Of a stretch of DNA of 64,000 bases, positions 5,030-35,071 are shown piece after piece. Within the stretch, counting starts at the first letter, position 1. Each line of letters begins with the position of its first letter. This stretch comes from Rhodococcus sp. HM1 (GTDB taxonomy: Bacteria > Actinomycetota > Actinomycetes > Mycobacteriales > Mycobacteriaceae), in contig NZ_JALPTB010000012.1 of the NCBI RefSeq assembly GCF_023218075.1, positions 1 to 64,000 of the forward strand, given 5' to 3'. The notes below the pieces were generated by a model that saw only the letters and a list, made by a program, of their open reading frames with translations, did no database searches and was not told where the DNA came from. The translations under genes were made by a program, and so were the position numbers.

Positions 5030-6054
5030 CCGATTCGGCGCTGGTCGAGGCCCTGCGGCGTGCCGTCGACGCGTCGGAGGACGTGCGGGGACGAACCAGC
5101 CCGAACCCGCCGGTGGGCGCCGTCGTGCTCGACGCCGACGGCCGGATCGCCGGGGTCGGCGCGACCCAGCCCCCCGGCGGGCCGCACGCCGAGGTGATGG
5201 CGCTGCGCGCGGCAGGGGAGCGGGCCCGCGGCGGCACCGCCGTCGTCACCCTCGAACCGTGCAACCACACCGGCCGTACCGGCCCGTGCACCCGGGCGCT
5301 GATCGACGCGGGCATCGCGACCGTCTACTACTCGGTGCCCGACCCGAACCCGTCCGCCGCCGGGGGAGCCGCCGCGCTGCGCGCCGCCGGAATCGTCGTG
5401 CACGAGGGGCTCGGCGCGGATGTCGTCGCGGCCGGCCCGCTCCGGGCGTGGCTGCACCGCACCCGCACCGGGCGTCCGCACGTGACGTGGAAGTACGCGG
5501 CCACCTTGGACGGGCGCATCGCCGCCGCCGACGGCACCAGCCAGTGGATCTCCGGCCCGGAATCCCGCGCGATCGTGCACGCCGAGCGGGCCCGCCTCGA
5601 CGCGATCGTCGTCGGCACCGGCACCGTCCTCGCGGACGACCCGTGGCTCACCGCCCGGCTGCCCGACGGTTCCCTCGCCCCGCACCAGCCGCTGCGGGTC
5701 GTGGTCGGTACCAGCGAACTGCCGACCCGGGCCCGGGTGCTCGACGACGCCGCGCCGACGCTGGTGCTGCGCACCCACGACGTCGACGAGGTCCTCGACG
5801 CACTCACCGACCACCCCGACGTGCTGCTCGAAGGCGGTCCGCGGCTGGCCGGGGCATTCCTCGCCGCCCGGCGTGTCGACCGCATCCAGGCGTACATCGC
5901 ACCGGTACTTCTCGGCGACGGCTGGTCCGCTGTGAGGGACGCCGGAGTGCACACGATCTCCGAGGCGATACGGTTTCGTCGGGAGCGCGTCGAAACGGTC
6001 GGCGCCGACGTGTTGATGACCCTGGTCCCCGACCGGGAGCAAAGGAGCGGGTAG
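5026..6054 (+). CDS. ribD: Bifunctional riboflavin deaminase/reductase RibD
   Basis: Performs the second and third steps of riboflavin synthesis: deamination of the pyrimidine product of GTP cyclohydrolase II and NADPH-dependent reduction of its ribose side chain. The N-terminal zinc deaminase domain has HAE at residues 54-56 and the two PC pairs with cysteines 79 and 88. The reductase domain covers about 145-335, with [16 protein letters not shown] and [12 protein letters not shown] motifs. The GTG at 5026 overlaps the rpe stop and gives 342 residues, close to the usual size. It is followed directly by ribE. Confidence 0.95.
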
Positions 6055-6663
6055 GTGTTCACCGGGATCGTCGAGGAACTGGGTGAGATCGTCACGCGCG
6101 AGGACCTGGCGGATGCGGCACGCTTCACCGTCCGCGGGCCGCTGGTGACCTCGGACGCGAAGCACGGCGAGTCGATCGCCGTCAACGGCGTGTGCCTGAC
6201 CGTCGTCGACGTCGTCGACGGAGACAAGTTCACCGCGGATGTGATGCAGGAGACACTGAACCGTTCGAGCCTCGCGCAGCTCGCCGCCGGCAGCCGCGTC
6301 AACCTCGAACGGGCCGCCGCGCTCGGCAGCCGTCTCGGGGGTCATCTGGTGCAGGGTCACGTCGACGGCACCGGCACGGTGATCTCCCGTTCCCCCTCCG
6401 AGAACTGGACCGTCGTGCGGATCTCCTTGCCGGACACCGTGTCCCGTTACGTCGTGGAGAAGGGGTCGATCACCGTCGACGGTGTGTCGCTGACCGTCTC
6501 CGGTCTCGGCGGCGAGCCGGGCGCGGAATGGTTCGAGATCTCGTTGATCCCCACCACCCTGTCGCTGACGACCCTCGGCACCGCCGAACCGGGCACCGTC
6601 GTCAATCTCGAGGTGGATGTGATCGCCAAGTACGTGGAGCGCCTGCAGAACGCGGGCCGCTGA
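6055..6663 (+). CDS. ribE: Riboflavin synthase alpha chain
   Basis: Dismutates two 6,7-dimethyl-8-ribityllumazine molecules into riboflavin and its pyrimidine precursor. The 202 residues form two lumazine-binding repeats: MFTGIVEELG at the start with SIAVNGVCLTVV, and the second half with GSITVDGVSLTVSG. The GTG start abuts the ribD stop with no spacer. Confidence 0.95.
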   Translation: MFTGIVEELGEIVTREDLADAARFTVRGPLVTSDAKHGESIAVNGVCLTVVDVVDGDKFTADVMQETLNRSSLAQLAAGSRVNLERAAALGSRLGGHLVQGHVDGTGTVISRSPSENWTVVRISLPDTVSRYVVEKGSITVDGVSLTVSGLGGEPGAEWFEISLIPTTLSLTTLGTAEPGTVVNLEVDVIAKYVERLQNAGR

Positions 6664-6678
6664 GTCGTACTGTTGAAT

Positions 6679-6699
6679 GCGGCAGTTTCCGCGTGCCGC
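6679..6699. other. Small hairpin between ribE and ribBA
   Basis: GCGGCA and TGCCGC flank a nine-base loop in the 82-base leader before ribBA. It is too small to be an FMN riboswitch and no conserved RFN pattern is visible. It may only be leader structure. Confidence 0.2.
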
Positions 6700-6745
6700 G
6701 GTTGTGCAAGCAGTTGTTGGAAATCGAGATTTGGAGCCCAGGCAA

Positions 6746-8954
<2,209 letters not shown>

Positions 8955-25176: not shown

Positions 25177-25665
25177 TCAGCGGTACGCCTCGCCGAGTTC
25201 CGGATAGTCCGCCCAGCGCGGCTCCCGCTGCCCGGCCAGCAGCGCGTCGAGCCGATCGAGGTAGTACTGCCAGCCCGGACCGATCTCGGCCGCCTCCGAA
25301 CGGGGAACGTGCCGATGCGTGAACTCGAGGGTCGTGACCCGGCCGACCTGACGCAACCGCAGCTCGAGCCTCCACCCGTCCACGTCGACGACGAGCATCC
25401 GCGGACCCGCGCACTCGACGATCGTGACATCCGTTGTCGTCGAGTCGTGCTCGTCGGTCATCGTCAAACGCACCCGGCCCGACGACGAATCCCCGGTCCA
25501 CCGTCCGTACCAGCGGGCGAGCACGTCCGGCTTGGTCAGCGCCGCCCACACCTCGCCGATCGGCAGCGCGAAACTGCGCTGATAGTGCAAGGTTACGAGG
25601 ATCGAACCGTGCGGACAGTCGTGCTCGGGGCGGACCTCGCCGAGCACGGTGGACGGGGTGCTCAT
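25177..25665 (-). CDS. SRPBCC/AHSA1-domain protein
   Basis: An activator-of-Hsp90-ATPase/START-like hydrophobic-pocket protein of 162 residues. The N-terminal LHYQRSFALPIGEVWAALTKPDVLARWYGRW pattern and C-terminal GWQYYLDRLDALLAG are typical. The ATG at 25665 has GGAGG upstream. Ligand unknown. Confidence 0.8.
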   Translation of the reverse strand: MSTPSTVLGEVRPEHDCPHGSILVTLHYQRSFALPIGEVWAALTKPDVLARWYGRWTGDSSSGRVRLTMTDEHDSTTTDVTIVECAGPRMLVVDVDGWRLELRLRQVGRVTTLEFTHRHVPRSEAAEIGPGWQYYLDRLDALLAGQREPRWADYPELGEAYR

Positions 25666-25752
25666 CGGAATGCTCCCTCCGGTCGTCGGATGCCGGACAC
25701 CGACAATTCTTCCGTGCGAGACATCCACCGGTGCGGTTTCCGGCGCGATCCG

Positions 25753-25970
25753 TGACCGACGCGAGACCGGCCGCCGCGGATACGGGGGAGGGCGCCGCAC
25801 CGGACCGGCTCGAGGCGATCTTCGAGCGATTCCACCGGGTCGATCCCGCACGCAGCACCGCCGGCACGGGTCTCGGACCGATCATCGCGCGCGGGCTCGC
25901 GACCGTGCACGGTGGCACTCTCACCGGCGACGGGCCGGGGATGCGGGGCTCGCTTCGAGCTGGACCTGCC
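25753..25970 (+). pseudogene. Remnant of a histidine kinase ATPase domain
   Basis: The reading DTGEGAAPDRLEAIFERFHRVD, then GTGLGPIIARGLATVHGGTL, is the G1/F/G2 part of a sensor-kinase HATPase domain. The frame then shifts, and GARFELDLP (the domain's last strand) appears one frame over near 25940-25970. The G2 box has a proline (GLGPII). There is no start codon, dimerisation domain or sensor, so this is a degraded 3' fragment. It contains the left copy of the 33-bp repeat that recurs after the ATPase gene. Confidence 0.7.
25795..25827 (+). repeat. Left copy of a 33-bp direct repeat bracketing the ATPase gene
   Basis: Matches 28515-28547 at 30 of 33 positions (shared core ACCGGCTCGAGGC). This copy encodes PDRLEAIFE of the kinase remnant. 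The two copies lie 2.7 kb apart on either side of the ATPase gene. Confidence 0.7.
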
Positions 25971-26083
25971 GTGCCGTGGTCCGGCTGCACGGTACGGGTC
26001 GGACCACTACGGTGATATCGAGTCGTATCGGTCGCGCCCGCCCGATCACCGAGATTCCCGACGCCACCCGGCCGTCATCCGCA

Positions 26084-26143
26084 GTGATCTCCATCGGCGG
26101 ATGGTGATTCCGATCGGCGGACGGTGATCGCGATCGGCGGACG
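26084..26143 (+). repeat. Three 20-bp tandem units before the ATPase gene
   Basis: Units start at 26084, 26104 and 26124; each has the form GTGAT-N4-ATCGGCGGAYG. The array ends where the AGGAG ribosome site of the ATPase gene begins, so it lies in its leader or promoter. Confidence 0.85.
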
Positions 26144-26155
26144 AGGAGCACAGCA

Positions 26156-28510
26156 GTGGCGGGAGATCCGGTACCGCATCCGACCGGGCGGGAACGATGG
26201 CGGCGATTCGTGGAACCGGCTCTGCTGGTTCTCACCCTGACGTTTCTGACGGGCGGCGTTGTCGCCTGGCTCGCGGGCGCAGCCGCGGTCGCGAACAGGT
26301 TCTGGATCACCGGCACGGTGATCGCGATCGTGCCCGCGGTGTGGTGGGTGCTGACGGCATTGCGCCGCGGGAGGGTGGGGGTCGATCTGATCGCCGTGCT
26401 GTCGCTGCTCGGCACATTGCTGGTCGACGAGTACCTTGCCGGCGCCCTCATCGCCGTCATGCTGGCCACCGGCCAGAGTCTCGACGCCGCGGCGAACCGC
26501 CGCGCGTCCAAGGACCTGCGAAGCCTGCTCGACCGTGCGCCGCGCTCGTCCCGGCGCCGGCGCGGGGAGATCGTCGAGACCGTGGCCATCGACGCCATCG
26601 CGGCAGGCGACGTCCTCGTCGTCGGATCGGGTGAAACGGTTCCGGTCGACGGCTGGATCATCGGTCCTGTCGCCGTCCTCGACGAATCGACGCTCACCGG
26701 TGAACCGATGAACGTCCGGCGCGGCGCCGGCGAGGCCGTGCGGTCCGGTGTCGTCAACGCCGGCGCCGTCTTCGAAATGGAGGCACGCGCGACCGCCGAG
26801 GAGAGCACCTACGCCGGAGTGGTCCGGCTCGCCCGCGATGCTGCTGCGGAATCCGCCCCGGTCGTGCGGCTGGCCGATCGGATCGCAGCGTGGTTCCTCC
26901 CGGTCGCACTGATCCTCGCTGCCGTCGCGTGGGTGGCGAGTGGTACTGCGGTGCGGGCGGTCGCTGTCCTCGTGGTGGCGACCCCGTGCCCACTGCTGCT
27001 CGCAGCCCCGGTCGCGATCGTGTCCGGGCTCTCTCGGGCTTCTCGCAGGGGAGTGGTGATCCGTAGTGGGGGCGCTCTCGAAAACCTGGGCCAGGCAACC
27101 ACACTCGTCATGGACAAGACCGGGACTCTGACCACCGGCCGGCCCGCGGAGTCCGACATGGTCACGGCGCCCGGTTACGACGCTCCCGAGGTTCTGCGGT
27201 TGGCCGCGTCCGCCGACCAGGTTTCCGCACACGTCCTCGCCGACGCCCTCGTCGAAGATGCGAGAATCCGGGGTCTGACGCTGTCCTATCCCACCGAGGT
27301 CGTGGAGGAACCCGGCACGGGGATCGCGGCCACCGTGGACGGTCGCCGCGTGACCGTCGGCACGCTGGTCCTGCCGGCACACGCACCGTCGTGGGCCCGC
27401 GCGGTGGTGGCTCGAAGCGTTCTCGACGGCGCGGTCGTCGTGTGGGTGACCGTCGACGGCGAACTGGCCGGCGCGATCCTGCTGACCGACCCCCTGCGCC
27501 GGGACGCGCCGCGCACGCTCAGACGCCTACGGTCGGCGGGTCTGAACAGGCTGGTGATGCTGACCGGCGACCGGCGTGCGCCCGCCGCGGAGATCGGCGC
27601 GATTCTCGGCCTCGACCACGTCTATGCGGAACAGACGCCGGCGGACAAGGTGTCCCGGGTGCGAGCCGAGTGCGAGTCGGCGGTGACGGTCATGGTGGGC
27701 GACGGCGTCAACGACGCTCCTGCCCTGGCCGCCGCAACGGTCGGGGTCGCGATGGGTGCGCGCGGGTCGACGGCAACCTCCGAGGCTGCCGACATCGTCC
27801 TGACCACGGACCGGCTCGACCGCATCGCCGACGCGATGGAAATCGCGCGCCGATCCCGCCGCATCGCTCTCCAGAGCGCCGGCATCGGGATGACGTTGTC
27901 TGTGGTGGCGATGGGATGTGCGGCAGCCGGCTGGTTGGCTCCGGCAGTGGGCGCGTTGTTGCAGGAAGCCATCGACGTCGCCGTCATCCTCAATGCGCTC
28001 CGGGCGCTGCGCGGCGAACATACCCGCGACGCGGTGCTGCCCGAGGACACCGAGAAGATGCTGCAGCGATTCTCGTGTGAGCACGAGGAGATGAGGGACC
28101 GGCTCTCGATACTGCGCGTCACCGCGCAGCTCCTGGCGGCCGGAGACCGGCAACGAGCGGTGGAATCGCTGCGGGACGTCGACGACTTCCTCACCGGAAC
28201 TCTGCTTCCGCACGAGCAGGCCGAGGAGACCGAACTCTATCCGGCGCTGGCCGCGCCACTCGGCAGCGGTGAGGCCACCGCGACGATGAGCCGGATGCAC
28301 GCCGAGATCGAGCGGCTCGCTCGCCGACTGCACACCCATCGCCGGCAGATCGACTCGCGCGGCGCTGTCGACCCGGACCGGTGCGACGACCTCCTCGCAT
28401 GTCTGTACGGCCTGCACGCGCTGCTGCGCCTGCACTTCCTTCAGGAGGAGGAGAACTACTTCACCCTCGTCGAAACGGGCGAGCATCGCGATGACCCGCC
28501 CTCGCTGTGA
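26156..28510 (+). CDS. P1B-type cation ATPase fused to a hemerythrin-like domain
   Basis: A 784-residue integral membrane pump. ATPase landmarks: actuator TGEP (181-184), membrane metal site TPCP (276-279), phosphorylation DKTGT (320-324) and hinge GDGVNDAP (515-522). There is no N-terminal HMA metal-binding domain, and the usual HP dipeptide of the nucleotide domain reads HV (359-360). After the last helix, residues 635-775 form a hemerythrin-like four-helix domain with H643, H686/E690, H715, H754 and H760/E764 in diiron-ligand spacing. GTG start with AGGAG upstream. Family knowledge: P1B pumps move Cu, Zn, Co, Fe or similar ions, and hemerythrin domains bind O2 or sense redox and iron. Inference: O2- or redox-gated metal export. 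It is next to hsp20 and the hydrogenase genes. Confidence 0.88.
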   Translation: MAGDPVPHPTGRERWRRFVEPALLVLTLTFLTGGVVAWLAGAAAVANRFWITGTVIAIVPAVWWVLTALRRGRVGVDLIAVLSLLGTLLVDEYLAGALIAVMLATGQSLDAAANRRASKDLRSLLDRAPRSSRRRRGEIVETVAIDAIAAGDVLVVGSGETVPVDGWIIGPVAVLDESTLTGEPMNVRRGAGEAVRSGVVNAGAVFEMEARATAEESTYAGVVRLARDAAAESAPVVRLADRIAAWFLPVALILAAVAWVASGTAVRAVAVLVVATPCPLLLAAPVAIVSGLSRASRRGVVIRSGGALENLGQATTLVMDKTGTLTTGRPAESDMVTAPGYDAPEVLRLAASADQVSAHVLADALVEDARIRGLTLSYPTEVVEEPGTGIAATVDGRRVTVGTLVLPAHAPSWARAVVARSVLDGAVVVWVTVDGELAGAILLTDPLRRDAPRTLRRLRSAGLNRLVMLTGDRRAPAAEIGAILGLDHVYAEQTPADKVSRVRAECESAVTVMVGDGVNDAPALAAATVGVAMGARGSTATSEAADIVLTTDRLDRIADAMEIARRSRRIALQSAGIGMTLSVVAMGCAAAGWLAPAVGALLQEAIDVAVILNALRALRGEHTRDAVLPEDTEKMLQRFSCEHEEMRDRLSILRVTAQLLAAGDRQRAVESLRDVDDFLTGTLLPHEQAEETELYPALAAPLGSGEATATMSRMHAEIERLARRLHTHRRQIDSRGAVDPDRCDDLLACLYGLHALLRLHFLQEEENYFTLVETGEHRDDPPSL

Positions 28511-28614: not shown

Positions 28615-29037
28615 TCACTTCGTGGTCTTGATGTCGATCTTCTTGGCGGATTCGGTTCCCTCGGCAAGCCCGATCGAGACGGTGAGAATTCCCTTGTCGT
28701 AGGACGCCTCGACGTCCTCGTCGTCGGCGGTGGGCGGCAGGGTCACCGAGCGATGGAACGAACCGTAGGAGAACTCGGACCGGCCCTTCTCGGTCTTCTC
28801 CTCGGTGCGTTCCGCGTGGATGTCGAGGCGGCCGCGGTCGACCGTGACGGTGATGTCCTTGTCCGGGTCCACTCCGGGAATCTCGGCTCGGACGATGTAG
28901 CGACCGTTGTCGATGTGGTCTTCGACGCGAATGAGGTTGTTGCCGAAGACGGTACCGAAGGAAGGCCATCGGAGCGTGTCGAAGATTTCGGACAGCTCCG
29001 GGAAGACCGAACGGGGCTGGCGAGCGGGCACAGACAT
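28615..29037 (-). CDS. Hsp20/alpha-crystallin small heat shock protein
   Basis: ATP-independent holdase chaperone of 140 residues. The alpha-crystallin domain spans about 40-130 (RYIVRAEIPGVDPDKDITVTV, GSFHRSVTLPPTAD, ASYDKGILTVSI). The ATG has GGAAGGGGG upstream. Homologues of this type (HspX/Acr) are strongly hypoxia-induced by DosR in mycobacteria, and a DosR-like box lies about 85 bases upstream in the divergent region. Confidence 0.92.
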   Translation of the reverse strand: MSVPARQPRSVFPELSEIFDTLRWPSFGTVFGNNLIRVEDHIDNGRYIVRAEIPGVDPDKDITVTVDRGRLDIHAERTEEKTEKGRSEFSYGSFHRSVTLPPTADDEDVEASYDKGILTVSIGLAEGTESAKKIDIKTTK

Positions 29038-29121: not shown

Positions 29122-29135
29122 GGGACGAAGGGCCC
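29122..29135. promoter_or_regulatory. DosR-like box in the hsp20-hyhB intergenic region
   Basis: GGGAC-N4-GGCCC matches the core of the mycobacterial DosR palindrome (GGGAC-N4-GTCCC) with one mismatch. It lies 85 bases from the hsp20 start and 80 bases from the hyhB start, so it could serve both. No DosR/DosS genes are in the window. Confidence 0.45.
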
Positions 29136-29214: not shown

Positions 29215-30360
29215 ATGGACGGCGCACGCATCCCGCGGGTGGACGAACGCATCCTGGACCGCCGGGGTCTCGATCTGCTGATCGACGTACTGCGAGAGCG
29301 GGGATATCGGGTCGTCGGCCCCACCGTGAGTGACACCGCGATCGTCCTCGGTGAGCTGAAATCGGGGGCCGACCTGCCGGCCGGATGGGGCGTCGAGACC
29401 GCTCCCGGCCGCTACCGGCTGCATCGACGCGACGACGCCGCCGTGTTCGCGCATTCGTCGGGTCCCCAATCCTGGAAGCAGTACCTGCATCCACCGCGAC
29501 GGCAACTGTGGTCCACCACCCGTGACGGTCCGTGGGAACCGCCCGTCGTCGACGAGACGCCCTGTGCGTTCGTCGGTGTGCGCGGTTGCGATCTCGCGGC
29601 GATCGCGGTGCTGCGCCGTGTCCTGTGTCCGGACCCGGACGCCGATACACCGACCGCGCGCCGTTTCCGCAGCCTGTTCGTCGTCGCCGCGCACTGCACC
29701 GAACCCGGCGGTGTGTGCTTCTGCGCCTCCATGGGCACCGGGCCGGCGGCCGGGGCGGGATACGACCTGGCGCTGACCGAACTCCTCGACAACCACGGCC
29801 ACCGATTCCTCGTCGACGTCGGAACCGAATCCGGTGCGGCAGTCCTCGGCGACGTCGAGTCCCGTGTCGCGGAAGCAGACGACGTCGAGGGTGCACGCCG
29901 CGCGGTCGCCGATGCGGCCCGGCACATGGGCCGCCACATGCCCGACACGGATCTGCGCGAGCTCCTCCGGCGTGCCCGGGACGCCGACGTCTGGGAAGAC
30001 GTCGCCGACCGATGCTTGACCTGCGGGAACTGCACGATGGTATGCCCCACCTGCTTCTGCACCACCACCGAGGACACGACCGACCTGACCGGTGAGCACG
30101 CGCAGCGCTGGCAGCACTGGTCGTCCTGCTTCGAACTCGACTTCAGCCACCTGCACGGCGGCGATGTCCGCACTTCCGGCGAGAGCCGGTACCGCCAGTG
30201 GATGTCGCACAAACTCGGCACGTGGTTCGACCAGTTCGGCAGTTCCGGATGTGTGGGATGCGGACGCTGCATCGACTGGTGCCCGGTCGGCATCGACATC
30301 ACCGAGGAAGCGGCACGACTGTCACAGCTGCTCCCGGCGTGGGGAGAGGACGACCGGTGA
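29215..30360 (+). CDS. hyhB: Group 3b [NiFe]-hydrogenase iron-sulfur subunit HyhB
   Basis: Beta subunit that passes electrons between the catalytic dimer and the flavin subunit. 381 residues. The C-terminal half carries two [4Fe-4S] motifs: C267, C270, C273, C277 (CLTCGNCTMVC) and C346, C349, C352, C356 (CVGCGRCIDWC). Upstream domain cysteines include GVRGCDLAAI and CTEPGGVCFC, as in sulfhydrogenase beta/AsrA-type proteins. First gene of a tightly packed six-gene run; its stop overlaps the next start. Cytoplasmic: no signal peptide. Confidence 0.88.
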   Translation: MDGARIPRVDERILDRRGLDLLIDVLRERGYRVVGPTVSDTAIVLGELKSGADLPAGWGVETAPGRYRLHRRDDAAVFAHSSGPQSWKQYLHPPRRQLWSTTRDGPWEPPVVDETPCAFVGVRGCDLAAIAVLRRVLCPDPDADTPTARRFRSLFVVAAHCTEPGGVCFCASMGTGPAAGAGYDLALTELLDNHGHRFLVDVGTESGAAVLGDVESRVAEADDVEGARRAVADAARHMGRHMPDTDLRELLRRARDADVWEDVADRCLTCGNCTMVCPTCFCTTTEDTTDLTGEHAQRWQHWSSCFELDFSHLHGGDVRTSGESRYRQWMSHKLGTWFDQFGSSGCVGCGRCIDWCPVGIDITEEAARLSQLLPAWGEDDR

Positions 30361-30818
30361 ACGCTCCCGAGCCCGTTCTCCCGGCCGCGCTCGCCGGGCT
30401 CTCCGAGGAACACCGCACCCGGCTCGCGGACTTCGCAGTCGCCGTCGGGTTCGCCCCCGGCGAGCTCGTCTTCCGGGAGGACGAACCCGCCACCCGGTGC
30501 TGGCTGCTGCACACCGGCAGCGTCGTGCTGAGCACGGTGGTACCGGGGCGAGGCACCGTGGTCCTCGAAACCGTGCACGGCGGCGACATCCTCGGCTGTT
30601 CCTGGCTCGCTGCCCGTCCCCGCTGGCAGTTCACCGCGCACGCCGCGGCCGTCACCGAGGCCACCGAGCTGGACGTCGTCGCCCTGCAGGCGACGGCCGC
30701 CGACGATCCGGCGTTCACCTACGCGGTGACGCGCGCCCTGTCGGAGATGATCGTCGCCCGCCTGCATTCGACGCGGGCCCGGTTGCTCGACCTCTACGCC
30801 GGCCGTTCCTCGGAGTGA
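30357..30818 (+). CDS. Stand-alone cyclic-nucleotide-binding-domain protein
   Basis: A CRP/FNR-type sensor domain of 153 residues from the GTG overlapping the hyhB stop. It has the beta-roll core (ELVFREDEPATRCWLLHTGSVVLS, GRGTVVLETVHGGDILGCSWL) and the dimer helix (DPAFTYAVTRALSEMIVARL), but no helix-turn-helix follows. It therefore cannot bind DNA in the usual way. Its place inside the hydrogenase operon suggests a subunit-linked or regulatory role, perhaps ligand-dependent control of the enzyme. A truncated regulator is the alternative. Confidence 0.8.
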   Translation: MNAPEPVLPAALAGLSEEHRTRLADFAVAVGFAPGELVFREDEPATRCWLLHTGSVVLSTVVPGRGTVVLETVHGGDILGCSWLAARPRWQFTAHAAAVTEATELDVVALQATAADDPAFTYAVTRALSEMIVARLHSTRARLLDLYAGRSSE

Positions 30819-30822
30819 CACC

Positions 30823-31656
30823 GTGACTCCGGATTCCGCGATTCCCCTCGGCTACCGGGTTGTCGCACGCGCGCGGGAAACACACGACACCGTCACGCTG
30901 ACGCTGCAGCCCCTCATGGAACCCGCCGAAAGACGTTTTGCACCAGGACAGTTCATGATGCTGTACGCCCACGGCGTCGGGGAGGTGGCGGTGTCGGTCA
31001 GCGGTGACCCGACGCCCGACAGTGACACGCTCGTCCACACCATCCGCAGCGTGGGGGCCGTGAGCCGGGCGCTGCACGACGCACCGGTCGGCACGGTGAT
31101 CGGTGTCCGGGGCCCGTTCGGGAACGGATGGCGGATGCACACCCGCCCCGGCGGTGATCTGGTCGTCGTCGCCGGAGGGGTAGGGCTGGCGCCCCTGCGG
31201 CCCGCCGTGCTCGCCGCGCTCGCCGCACGCGACCGGTTCCGGCGGCTCACCCTCGTCGTCGGGGCGCGGACCCCGGCGAACATCCTGTTCCCATCCGACC
31301 TGTCCGCCTGGGCGACCCGGGACGACCTCACCGTCGAGCTGACGATCGACCAACCGGTGTCCGGGTGGACGGGTGCGGTCGGATTCGTCACCGAAGCCCT
31401 ACAGAGAATCGACGTCGACCCCGCCCGCACCACCGCACTGCTGTGCGGGCCCGAACCGATGATGCGGTTCTGCGCCCGCGCCCTGATGTCGCGGGGAGTT
31501 CCCGCCGAGGCCATCCAGTTGTCCCTCGAACGGAACATGCAGTGTGGCACCGGGCAGTGCGGCCACTGCCAACTCGGGGAGCTCCTGCTCTGCCGGGACG
31601 GGCCCGTCGTCGACTACACCGTCGCCGAACCGCTTCTGCGCGTACCGGAGCTGTAG
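30823..31656 (+). CDS. hyhG: Group 3b [NiFe]-hydrogenase flavin subunit HyhG
   Basis: Gamma subunit of the ferredoxin-reductase/dihydroorotate-dehydrogenase electron-transfer type: FAD domain (about 10-105), NAD(P) domain with [10 protein letters not shown] (118-127) and CGPEPMM, and a C-terminal [2Fe-2S] site with C241, C246, C249 and C257. It exchanges electrons with NAD(P)H. 277 residues. GTG start four bases after the previous gene, with GGAG upstream. Confidence 0.9.
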
Positions 31657-32448
31657 ATGAGTACACCCTCGAAACCGACACCGACCCTCGCGGTGTGGAA
31701 GTTCGCCTCCTGCGACGGCTGCCAGCTCACCCTTCTCGACTGCGAGGACGAGCTGCTGCCGCTGGCCGAGGAGGTGTCGATCGCCCATTTCCTCGAGCTG
31801 TCCGACGCCGTCGCGGGTGGACCGTACGACCTGTCGCTGGTCGAAGGATCGATCACCACCGCGGCCGACCGCGACCGCATCCGCAGGATCAGGGAACAAT
31901 CCCGGTCCCTGGTCACCATCGGGGCCTGCGCCACCGCGGGCGGGATCCAGGCGCTGCGCAACTTCGCCGACATCGACGAGTTCCTGTCGGTCGTCTACGC
32001 CGACCCCCACTACATCGACACGCTCGCCACCTCGACCCCCGTCTCGGCGCACGTGCCGGTCGACTTCGAACTGCGCGGATGTCCCATCGATCGCCGCCAG
32101 CTCCTCGAGGTGATCACCGCCTACCTGTCCGGACGGAAGCCGAACATCCCGAACACCACCGTGTGCACGGAGTGCAAACGACGCGGTCTGACCTGCGTGA
32201 TGGTCGCCGAGGGCACACCCTGCCTCGGACCGGTGACGCACTCCGGCTGCGGCGCACTGTGTCCGGCCGTCTCCCGGGGATGCTACGGCTGTTTCGGTCC
32301 GGCGCCCGATCCCAACCTCGCGTCCATGACGGGGTGGCTGCGGACCTGCGGCATGAGCGAGGCGGACATCTCCCGGATCTTCGCGACGTTCAACGTCGCG
32401 GCGTTCGACACCGGCACGGCGGGAGCACGCGATGACCGACTCCCGTAG
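31657..32448 (+). CDS. hyhS: Group 3b [NiFe]-hydrogenase small subunit HyhS
   Basis: Small subunit holding the proximal iron-sulfur relay next to the NiFe site. It starts directly after hyhG. C19 and C22 are in the SCDGCQ motif, the third region reads [11 protein letters not shown], and more cysteines follow in ELRGCPIDR and the C-terminal [14 protein letters not shown] and GCYGCFG. 263 residues, no Tat signal, as expected for a cytoplasmic enzyme. Its 3' end overlaps hyhL by 17 bases. Confidence 0.92.
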
Positions 32449-33724
32449 GGAAATGACCGTCCGGGCGCTCGCCCGCGTCGAAGGCGAAGGCCGGCTCGAC
32501 GTCACCGTCCGCGACGGCCGCGCCGAGCGGGTGGATCTCGCGATCTACGAGCCGCCGAGATTCTTCGAATCGTTCCTGCGTGGCCGGCACTTCCTGGAGC
32601 CGCCCGACATCACCTCCCGGATCTGCGGGATCTGCCCCGTCGCGTATCAGGTGAGCGCCTGCAACGCGCTGGAGGACGCGTGCGGAGTGATCGTCGACGA
32701 CGACATCACCGACCTTCGCCGGCTCCTGTACTGCGGGGAGTGGATCGCGAGCCACGTGCTGCACATCTACTTCCTTCACGCCCCAGACTTCCTCGGCGTC
32801 CCGGATTCGATCGAACTCGCGCGCAGGGATCGTGCCGCGGTCGAACGGGGACTGGCCTTGAAGAAGGCGGGAAACGCCGTCCTCGACGTCGTCGGTGGGC
32901 GCCCGATTCACCCCGTCAACGTGCGGGTCGGCGGATTCCACCACGCCCCGACCCGGGCCGAACTCGCCCCGCTCGCAACGCAACTCGACGCCGCCCTCGA
33001 CGACGCGGTGGCAACGGTCGACTGGGTGTCCTCCTTCGACTGTCCCGACATCGACGTCGACCACGAGTTCCTCGCGTTGCAGCACCCGTCGCGCTACGCC
33101 ATCGAGGACGGCGACGTCGTCTCCACTTCCGGGTTGCATTGCACAGCAAGCGAATTCCCGAAGCACGTGACCGAACACCAGGTGCCGCACTCGACCGCAC
33201 TGCACGCTACGCTCGACGGGCGCCGCTACCTCACCGGCCCGCTGGCCCGGTATTCGCTCAACTCCGGGCAACTGACCGGGCAGGCCGCGGCGTCCGCGGC
33301 CGCGGCGGGACTCGGCCCCCGATGCCGCAATCCCTACCGCAGCATCGTCGTCCGCGCCGTCGAGGTCGTGTACGCGCTGGAGGAGGCGCTGCGGATCATC
33401 GACCGCTACCGACGGCCCGCTCCACCCGCCACCGCTGTCTCGCCGGTGCGTCGCGTCGGGCACGGTGTCAGCGAAGCGCCCCGTGGCCTGCTCTATCACC
33501 GCTACGAACTGGACTCCGCCGGCCTCGTCACCGCGGCCGCGATCGTCCCGCCGACCTCCCAGAATCAGGCGGCGATCGAGCACGATCTGCGCCGCGCCGT
33601 CGAGGCGAATCTCGCCGCCTCGGACGAGGATCTGACGATGATGTGCGAGCACATCATCCGCAACTACGATCCGTGCATCTCGTGCGCCACGCACTTCCTG
33701 ACCCTCACGGTGCAGCGCCGATGA
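32432..33724 (+). CDS. hyhL: Group 3b [NiFe]-hydrogenase large subunit HyhL
   Basis: Catalytic subunit that binds the NiFe(CN)2CO centre. The N-terminal ligand motif RICGICP gives C65 and C68; the C-terminal motif DPCISCATH gives C415, C418 and H421. Cleavage after H421 would remove nine residues, consistent with the protease gene that follows. 430 residues. Start at 32432 chosen because GGGAG lies six bases upstream; an in-frame ATG at 32453 is the alternative. No hyp maturation genes are in the window, so they must be elsewhere. Confidence 0.93.
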
Positions 33725-33731
33725 TGTGCCG

Positions 33732-34199
33732 ATGAGAACCGTGGTGCTCGGGTTGGGAAACGACTACCGCAGGGACGACGGGGTCGGACCCGCGGTCGCG
33801 CGCGACGTCGCCGCCCGGGTGGCACCGGACGTCGGGGTGTACGCGGTGGACGGCGAACCGACGCGGATGCTCGACGCGTGGGACGGCGCGGATCTGGCGA
33901 TTCTGATCGATTCCGCGGTAGGAGATTCCGCTCGTTCGGGAACGGTGACTCCGGGAACCGTGCACCGTTTCGACTCGCAGGACCTGACGCTGTCGCCGGG
34001 GGCGGCGACCAGTACCCACGGCTTCGGGTTGATCACCGCCCTCGAGCTGGGGCGTCTGCTCGATCGCATGCCCCGCCGATGGGTGCTGTACACCGTCGAC
34101 GCCGCCGACGTCGGCTTCGGCTGCGGCCTGTCCCGCACCGCCGCCCGAGCAGCCGACCGGGTGGTCGCGGCGGTGCTGGAGGAAATTACCCGCGTCTAG
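33732..34199 (+). CDS. Hydrogenase maturation endopeptidase
   Basis: HycI/HyaD-family nickel-dependent protease that trims the large-subunit C-terminus after Ni insertion. The GNDYRRDDGVG motif (9-19) with the metal-binding aspartate and the THGFG segment are present. 155 residues from the ATG at 33732; a GTG at 33726 is also possible. The last four bases overlap the convergent universal-stress gene. Confidence 0.88.
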   Translation: MRTVVLGLGNDYRRDDGVGPAVARDVAARVAPDVGVYAVDGEPTRMLDAWDGADLAILIDSAVGDSARSGTVTPGTVHRFDSQDLTLSPGAATSTHGFGLITALELGRLLDRMPRRWVLYTVDAADVGFGCGLSRTAARAADRVVAAVLEEITRV

Positions 34200-35071
34200 C
34201 GCACCACCAGCATCGGGCAGGTCACGTGGTGCAGCAGCGCGCGGCTCGTCGAGCCCAGCAGCAGGCCCGTGAACCCGCCCCGTCCGCGACTTCCGACCAC
34301 CAACAGCTGGGCGTGCTCGGACTCGTCACGCAGGGTCCGGACGGGCCGATCCAGGACCACCACCGTCCGGACCGGGACGTCGGGGAACTCCCCGGAGTAT
34401 CCGGCCAGGCTCTCGGACAGCGTCGCCCGCTCGCGTTCCTCCACCTGGGCCCAGTCGAAGTCGCTGGGGAACGGGGCGTGCACATCGACGTCGGACCACG
34501 CGTGGACCGCGACGAGCTCGGCACCGCGCATGGCCGCCTCCTCGAACGCCATCGCGATCGCGGGCTCGCTGTGCTTCGACCCGTCGGCCCCGACGACGAC
34601 CGGACCGGAAATATCGTTGACGTCGACATGCGGGAGACCCCGTACGACGGCCACCGGTGAACGGGCGTGGGTGACCACCGCGGAGCTGACCGAGCCGAGA
34701 ATCGCACGTTCGATCAGGCCGCGCCGATTCGCACCGAGGACCACCATCCGGGCGGACTTGGATCGCTCGATCAGCTCGCGGGCCGGTGCATCCTGTGACA
34801 CGGCCTTCTCGACCTCGACGGTGTGTCCCGCCGTCACCTGCGCGACCAGGCTCTCGGCCTCGGCGAGCCGCCGCTCCGCCTCGAGCTGCTCCTCCTCGTA
34901 GAAGGTGTCCGGCATTCCGATGGGGACGACGTAGCCGCCGGACACGATCGCCGTGGTGACAAGGGTGAGGGGAGCCCCCCGTCGTGCTGCTTCCTTCGCG
35001 GCCCACGCGACCGCTTGCAGAGACGAGGGTGAGCCGTCCACTCCGACGACTATCGGTTGAGGTGCGGTCAC
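34196..35071 (-). CDS. Tandem universal stress protein
   Basis: Two UspA domains (about 1-145 and 155-291). Each has the N-terminal PIVVGVDGS or PVVVGADGSK strand and an ATP-binding G-x2-G-x9-G-S/T loop (GANRRGLIERAILGSVS and GSRGRGGFTGLLLGSTS). Two-domain USPs of this size are DosR-regulated in mycobacteria (family knowledge). Convergent with the maturation protease by a four-base overlap. Confidence 0.9.
   Translation of the reverse strand: MTAPQPIVVGVDGSPSSLQAVAWAAKEAARRGAPLTLVTTAIVSGGYVVPIGMPDTFYEEEQLEAERRLAEAESLVAQVTAGHTVEVEKAVSQDAPARELIERSKSARMVVLGANRRGLIERAILGSVSSAVVTHARSPVAVVRGLPHVDVNDISGPVVVGADGSKHSEPAIAMAFEEAAMRGAELVAVHAWSDVDVHAPFPSDFDWAQVEERERATLSESLAGYSGEFPDVPVRTVVVLDRPVRTLRDESEHAQLLVVGSRGRGGFTGLLLGSTSRALLHHVTCPMLVVR

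Follow-up and report, generated by a model that had tools for sequence, protein, structure and literature searches.

A P1B-5-type metal-transporting ATPase with a C-terminal hemerythrin-like domain in Rhodococcus sp. HM1: a further actinobacterial example of a known architecture

P1B-5-ATPases that carry a C-terminal hemerythrin-like domain are known from Acidothermus cellulolyticus (Traverso et al. 2010) and from Sinorhizobium meliloti, where the protein, Nia, transports Ni and Fe (Zielazinski et al. 2013); both are cited here through a review (PMC9388753). According to the same text, the A. cellulolyticus domain undergoes very rapid autooxidation, while that of S. meliloti has an unusually stable oxy form. 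The review gives H-HxxxE-HxE-HxxxxD as the ligand motif of these domains, leaves undecided whether they sense O2/redox state or iron, and doubts their place among the O2 sensors. Induction of Nia by Fe and Ni, and accumulation of both metals in a nia mutant, are cited in a second paper (PMC4932525). An earlier note on the Rhodococcus gene described here, made from the sequence alone, knew of no characterised example of such a fusion; these two proteins are examples.

How does the Rhodococcus locus compare? The window, a 64,000-nucleotide stretch of one Rhodococcus sp. HM1 contig, contains an uninterrupted reading frame with a GTG start codon, preceded by GAGGAG at 26143-26148 (Table 1). Pfam recognises an E1-E2_ATPase domain at residues 128-298, a Hydrolase domain at 316-527 and a Hemerythrin domain (PF01814) at 642-771, the last with E = 3.2e-13 and 50.7 bits against a cut-off of 25.3. 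The heavy-metal translocating P-type ATPase model of NCBIfam, TIGR01525, spans the core (E = 1.6e-148). TPCP lies at residues 276-279, the phosphorylation motif DKTGT at 320-324 and QEAID at 603-607 in the last membrane helix; D320-K-T-G-T324 is invariant in an alignment of 18 sequences. We take TPCP and QExxD to be membrane motifs of the P1B-5 class; SPC and HEG are those of P1B-4. An HMA domain gave no Pfam match in the pump at E <= 0.1. On both counts, a metal pump with a covalently attached hemerythrin-like domain and without HMA, the earlier note had read the gene correctly. A predicted model of the whole pump finds its best structural matches in the P1B pumps 4bbj and 4umw.

Table 1. Features of the pump locus, in positions of the window.
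Feature	Position	Strand	Details or basis
Three 20-bp direct repeats, just 5' of the pump start codon	26084..26143	+	3.0 copies, 87% matches
Hemerythrin-tailed P1B-5 type metal-transporting P-type ATPase gene	26156..28510	+	784 aa; Pfam, NCBIfam, alignment, trees
P1B ATPase core, residues 76-616	26381..28003	+	TIGR01525 match and conservation
C-terminal hemerythrin-like helices, residues 630-772	28043..28471	+	PF01814 at 642-771, models, conservation in 71 sequences
Hsp20 small heat shock protein (neighbour)	28615..29037	-	
[NiFe] hydrogenase gene cluster, six genes (neighbours)	29215..34199	+	
Universal stress protein (USP; neighbour)	34196..35071	-	

The window protein matches 77 plasmid records at E <= 1e-100, and S. 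meliloti 2011 pSymA is among them. The pSymA protein (L038) aligns end to end, tail included, at about 45% identity and has a Hemerythrin match of its own (E = 4.4e-7); it is presumably Nia, a name we assign to a stretch that comes without gene annotation. Like the window pump it has TPCP, QExID, no HMA match at E <= 0.1 and a C-terminal hemerythrin-like tail. Unlike the window pump, it belongs to a rhizobial host and has Asp at the position of E690 and Leu at 765. The A. cellulolyticus ATPase (UniProt A0LQU2), compared through its description in the review, shares the domain order actuator, ATP-binding, C-terminal hemerythrin-like. Two tail-less P1B-5 relatives, from Solirubrobacteraceae (L075) and Methylobacterium goesingense (L087), resemble the window pump in their TPCP/QExxD core and in giving no HMA match; unlike it, proteins of these types end shortly past residue 620 and have no hemerythrin match. 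The architecture is thus already published, and the window gene is a further actinobacterial example of a known protein type.

Homologues were sampled from 80 loci among the genome-contig matches listed and from six of the 77 plasmid records, a non-exhaustive set. An alignment of the window protein with 17 of them, drawn from its own family, other actinobacteria, Caballeronia and S. meliloti, can be followed throughout the tail, and all 18 sequences individually match Pfam Hemerythrin, so the tail is not a chance match. The same fusion, which the earlier note had proposed to look for in other actinomycetes, occurs in at least 71 sequences, other actinobacteria included. Counted over these fused sequences (window protein included, identity down to about 45%), the columns of H643, H686, H715, E717 and E764 are invariant (71/71). 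H760 and E687 are each kept in 70 of 71, and the E690 column holds 64 Glu and 7 Asp. The conserved putative ligand set, as the alignment has it, is H643, H686/E687/E690, H715/E717 and H760/E764. The tail's conservation, and most of the ligands named in the earlier note (H643, H686/E690, H715, H760/E764), are borne out; that note overlooked the invariant E717. Its H754 is not a conserved ligand, since the column has His in only 44 of 71 sequences (Tyr in 18, Asp in 4).

These columns bear on the published motif. The fused sequences read H-HxxxE-HxE-HxxxE. Four residues after H760 stands Glu in 71/71; the position after that has 64 Glu, 6 Asp and a single Leu, which belongs to the S. meliloti copy L038. 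The alignment thus favours HxxxE over HxxxxD as the last ligand element, and the other elements match the review. The set also departs from the canonical hemerythrin ligands H-HxxxE-HxxxH-HxxxxD: HxE (H715, E717) replaces HxxxH, and residue 719 is Glu. Could the tail, then, be an iron sensor or an autoinhibitory metal-binding domain, in which occupation of the site by cytosolic Fe(II) lifts inhibition, the O2 reactivity of the tail being incidental? This reading, to which we give a little under an even chance, is in keeping with the non-canonical ligand set and with the review, which leaves iron sensing possible and doubts the P1B-5 domain as an O2 sensor. The O2 chemistry of the relatives' domains, the stable oxy form of S. 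meliloti and the autooxidation of A. cellulolyticus (PMC9388753), speaks against it.

A stand-alone relative of the tail apparently exists elsewhere in the same genome, outside the window (G000:C180:54744-55010); it matches residues 636-725 of the pump at 36% identity (E = 7.2e-7) in an open frame of 267 aa.

AlphaFold2 modelled the whole pump from 17 sequences with a mean pLDDT of 78.2. After the membrane core it places helices at residues 630-649, 651-661, 665-702, 706-735 and 740-772. Ten-residue means of pLDDT are 82-92 over residues 631-760, except for 64 at 701-710, and fall to 65 at 761-770. Modelled alone from nine sequences, the tail reaches pLDDT 87.1 and pTM 0.81, and it is predicted to fold as a four-helix bundle, in line with the helical bundle that the earlier note had expected of the C-terminal region. 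H643 lies on the first helix, H686/E690 in 665-702, H715/E717 in 706-735 and H760/E764 on the last helix; counting from the helix ends, the ligand pairs would sit at comparable heights. Foldseek found no match for the tail model alone at E <= 0.001. A second structural aligner, also given the tail alone, returned designed and unrelated helical bundles in its top rows alongside 3cax and 2p0n, which we take to be hemerythrin-like structures. Searched as a sequence profile against solved structures, the tail comes nearest to the hemerythrin-type protein YtfE (E = 1.7e-6). YtfE, an Fe-S cluster repair protein, is unlike the pump tail in that it is not fused to a pump and has a different function. 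By itself the fold evidence is weak; the tail is identified by its Pfam family and its ligand columns.

To which class of P1B pump does the core belong? TPCP and QExID occur together in 71/71 fused sequences, L038 included. The P1B rows outside the pump clade have mostly CPC, CPH or SPC, and SPCP stands in two of the clade's tail-less members. Two core trees were built, both by quick searches, with some long branches and with 14 hand-picked outgroup rows each. The first held 97 cores (70 fused, 13 tail-less, 14 outgroup), nine tail-less actinobacterial sequences being absent from it; the second held 93 (57 fused, 22 tail-less, 14 outgroup), with those nine added and 13 near-copies omitted. The pump clade has support 100 in both, contains every fused row included, and groups with the Nia copy apart from the CPC, CPH and SPC/HEG pumps. 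That the pump is instead of the P1B-2 or P1B-4 type with an accidental fusion might be suggested by its best NCBIfam names, generic heavy-metal and cadmium-family models, and by the listing of Nia itself among P1B4 iron exporters, not P1B-5, in another review (PMC7762939). Against this stand the TPCP and QEAID motifs, in place of CPC or SPC/HEG, and the separate, fully supported clade of both trees; we regard such a class as very improbable.

The label fused changes twice on the first tree and three times on the second. On the 93 cores of the second tree, the history of the tail can be read as a single gain with two losses, of which one depends on a single sequence (L196) from a genome that carries a fused pump as well (L066). 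Tail-less members of that tree come from an archaeon, from other bacteria and from a sister clade within the actinobacteria. The earlier note had suggested that the hemerythrin domain replaces HMA as the regulatory element. Tail-less relatives branch outside the fused clade, and the two tail-less members scanned also gave no HMA match, so the tail is no simple stand-in for a lost HMA domain.

Might the tail have no regulatory role at all, serving iron storage, anchoring or stability? The two losses that the tree suggests inside the fused clade, one of them L196 alone, with the core persisting, agree with such a role. So does the lower conservation of linker and tail: mean identity to the window protein over the 71 sequences is 0.31 for the linker and 0.51 for the tail, against 0.65 for the core. 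The ligand columns, mostly invariant over 71 sequences at identities down to about 45%, are hard to reconcile with it, and we think it unlikely.

The presence of both a fused (L066) and a tail-less (L196) P1B-5 pump in one genome, G289, is recorded here as an observation.

The pump is followed in the window by an Hsp20 gene and a [NiFe] hydrogenase cluster encoding an Fe-S subunit, a cNMP-binding domain protein, an NAD-binding reductase, the small subunit, the large subunit and a maturation protease. The earlier note had found its oxygen-gating idea to fit the hydrogenase and Hsp20 neighbours; they are present at this locus, and their adjacency is not general in the family. We compared regions of 15-21 kb around 32 family pumps with 20 control regions from 20 of these genomes. 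The hydrogenase large subunit lies near 4/32 pumps and Hsp20 near 2/32, each against 0/20 controls, differences that are not significant. USP lies near 8/32 against 0/20, with p = 0.014 uncorrected, the only one of eleven markers below 0.05; the eleven groups were drawn from the pump regions with a crude gene caller, and their p-values are biased in favour of the pump.

Genes for iron handling lie beside some copies of the pump, as the iron-sensing reading of the tail would have it: members of the ferritin and VIT families on a plasmid of Mycolicibacterium aubagnense, and a VIT-family member near the copy on a Rhodococcus (R. qingshengii) plasmid. They are rare near family pumps (VIT 1/32, ferritin 0/32), which weighs against that reading, and iron-handling neighbours as a general rule were rejected on these counts.

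Across whole genomes of the family, the pump and the hydrogenase tend to occur together. The pump occurs in 32/201 family genomes (E <= 1e-180) and the hydrogenase in 28/201 (E <= 1e-100); 24 of the 28 hydrogenase-bearing genomes have the pump, against 8 of the 173 others (Fisher p = 2.5e-20, ignoring relatedness). For comparison, a different P1B pump encoded by the Rhodococcus sp. HM1 genome and found in 132/201 overlaps with the hydrogenase in 22/28 (p = 0.14). Twelve of the 24 sharing genomes carry pump and hydrogenase on the same contig, and in five the two starts lie no more than 20 kb apart. Nine genomes outside the family have both, four on the same contig and three within 20 kb; one of these nine pumps (G370) is tail-less. 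Gene order and orientation vary among the linked loci. With the hydrogenase cut at E <= 1e-60, the pump occurs outside the family in 9/77 hydrogenase genomes and 25/304 others (p = 0.23); at E <= 1e-110, a cut chosen post hoc, in 9/31 and 25/350 (p = 0.0006). For these outside-family tests the 15 family genomes among the matches listed were removed, and relatedness was ignored. The phylum-wide association is threshold-dependent and close linkage is uncommon; the co-distribution within the family is a modest new lead.

Two observations concern the linked loci themselves. The cNMP-binding-domain gene (30198-30815, +) has the same place in the hydrogenase cluster in 6/7 other linked loci (L219, L221-L225), the sequence of L220 not reaching it. 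In L224 and L223 the P1B-5 pump is separated from the hydrogenase cluster by another, weakly similar P-type ATPase at about 6000-8000.

Do pump and hydrogenase form one physiological unit in actinobacteria, in which the diiron tail would tune Fe/Ni efflux to O2 or iron status and so retain metal for hydrogenase assembly in hypoxia? The co-distribution (24/28) and the repeated loose linkage in differing gene orders would count as its traces, and we consider the idea a long shot. Among titles and abstract openings of the open-licence literature, we found none that links hemerythrin, P-type ATPase and hydrogenase. Another possibility is the gating by oxygen that the earlier note had proposed. The tail would then be an O2/redox gate: an oxidised or oxygenated diiron site would alter efflux, so that Fe/Ni is kept in hypoxia and exported upon re-oxygenation. 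The reaction of the relatives' domains with O2 (PMC9388753), the co-distribution with the [NiFe] hydrogenase and the USP marker (uncorrected, one of eleven drawn from pump regions) all lean this way. Upstream sequence does not: a box like that of the dormancy regulator DosR is not enriched upstream of 51 pumps (two-base-block shuffle, a rough control). Gating by O2, which we offer as a hypothesis, seems to us somewhat unlikely.

DosR-like control of the pump found no support, with no enrichment in the window or in the 51 upstream regions. A scan of the window for DosR-like palindromes gave 197 matches, fewer than the shuffle mean of 338, and the best match upstream of the pump has four mismatches (p about 0.9). 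An imperfect DosR-like palindrome with two mismatches lies at 29122-29135, in the divergent gap between the Hsp20 and hydrogenase genes. IdeR-type control was rejected, as the window contains no IdeR-type box at up to three mismatches. The direct repeats before the start codon are a putative element, possibly an operator, possibly a coincidence. Further upstream, an ORF at 25434-26012 (+) encodes part of a histidine-kinase ATPase domain (profile positions 43-93 of 111), apparently the remnant of a sensor kinase.

Taken together, the gene very probably encodes an actinobacterial P1B-5 ATPase of the Nia/A. cellulolyticus type, most likely an Fe(II)/Ni(II) exporter whose activity a diiron tail may adjust. 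Family identity is well supported; metal binding by the tail, metal specificity and gating are what we infer. The membrane core would export a divalent transition metal from the cytoplasm using ATP; by analogy with the literature on Nia, Fe(II), Ni(II) or both are its most likely substrates. One study counts against this explanation: deletion of nia in S. meliloti CCNWSX0020 left tolerance to Cu, Zn, Cd, Pb and Ni unaltered (PMC4932525). The P1B4 listing of Nia, the scarcity of iron-handling neighbours, the lack of an IdeR-type box in the window and the outcome of the fold searches with the tail model also weigh against it. The cytoplasmic C-terminal helical bundle may hold a non-canonical diiron site, and the tail most likely adjusts pump activity, as a sensor of iron loading or of O2/redox state. 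We slightly favour iron sensing over O2 gating because the ligands of the tail differ from the canonical O2-binding set and the review decides for neither.

The main outcome is that a published architecture is confirmed in another actinomycete. The 71 fused sequences favour H-HxxxE-HxE-HxxxE as its ligand motif. If the tail was indeed gained once and lost twice, tail-less pumps are available as natural controls for its role, and the strong co-distribution of pump and [NiFe] hydrogenase in one actinobacterial family could matter as well. Together, the alignment, the history of the domain and the co-distribution bring both the choice between O2 and iron sensing and the identity of the transported metal within reach of tests in laboratory strains.
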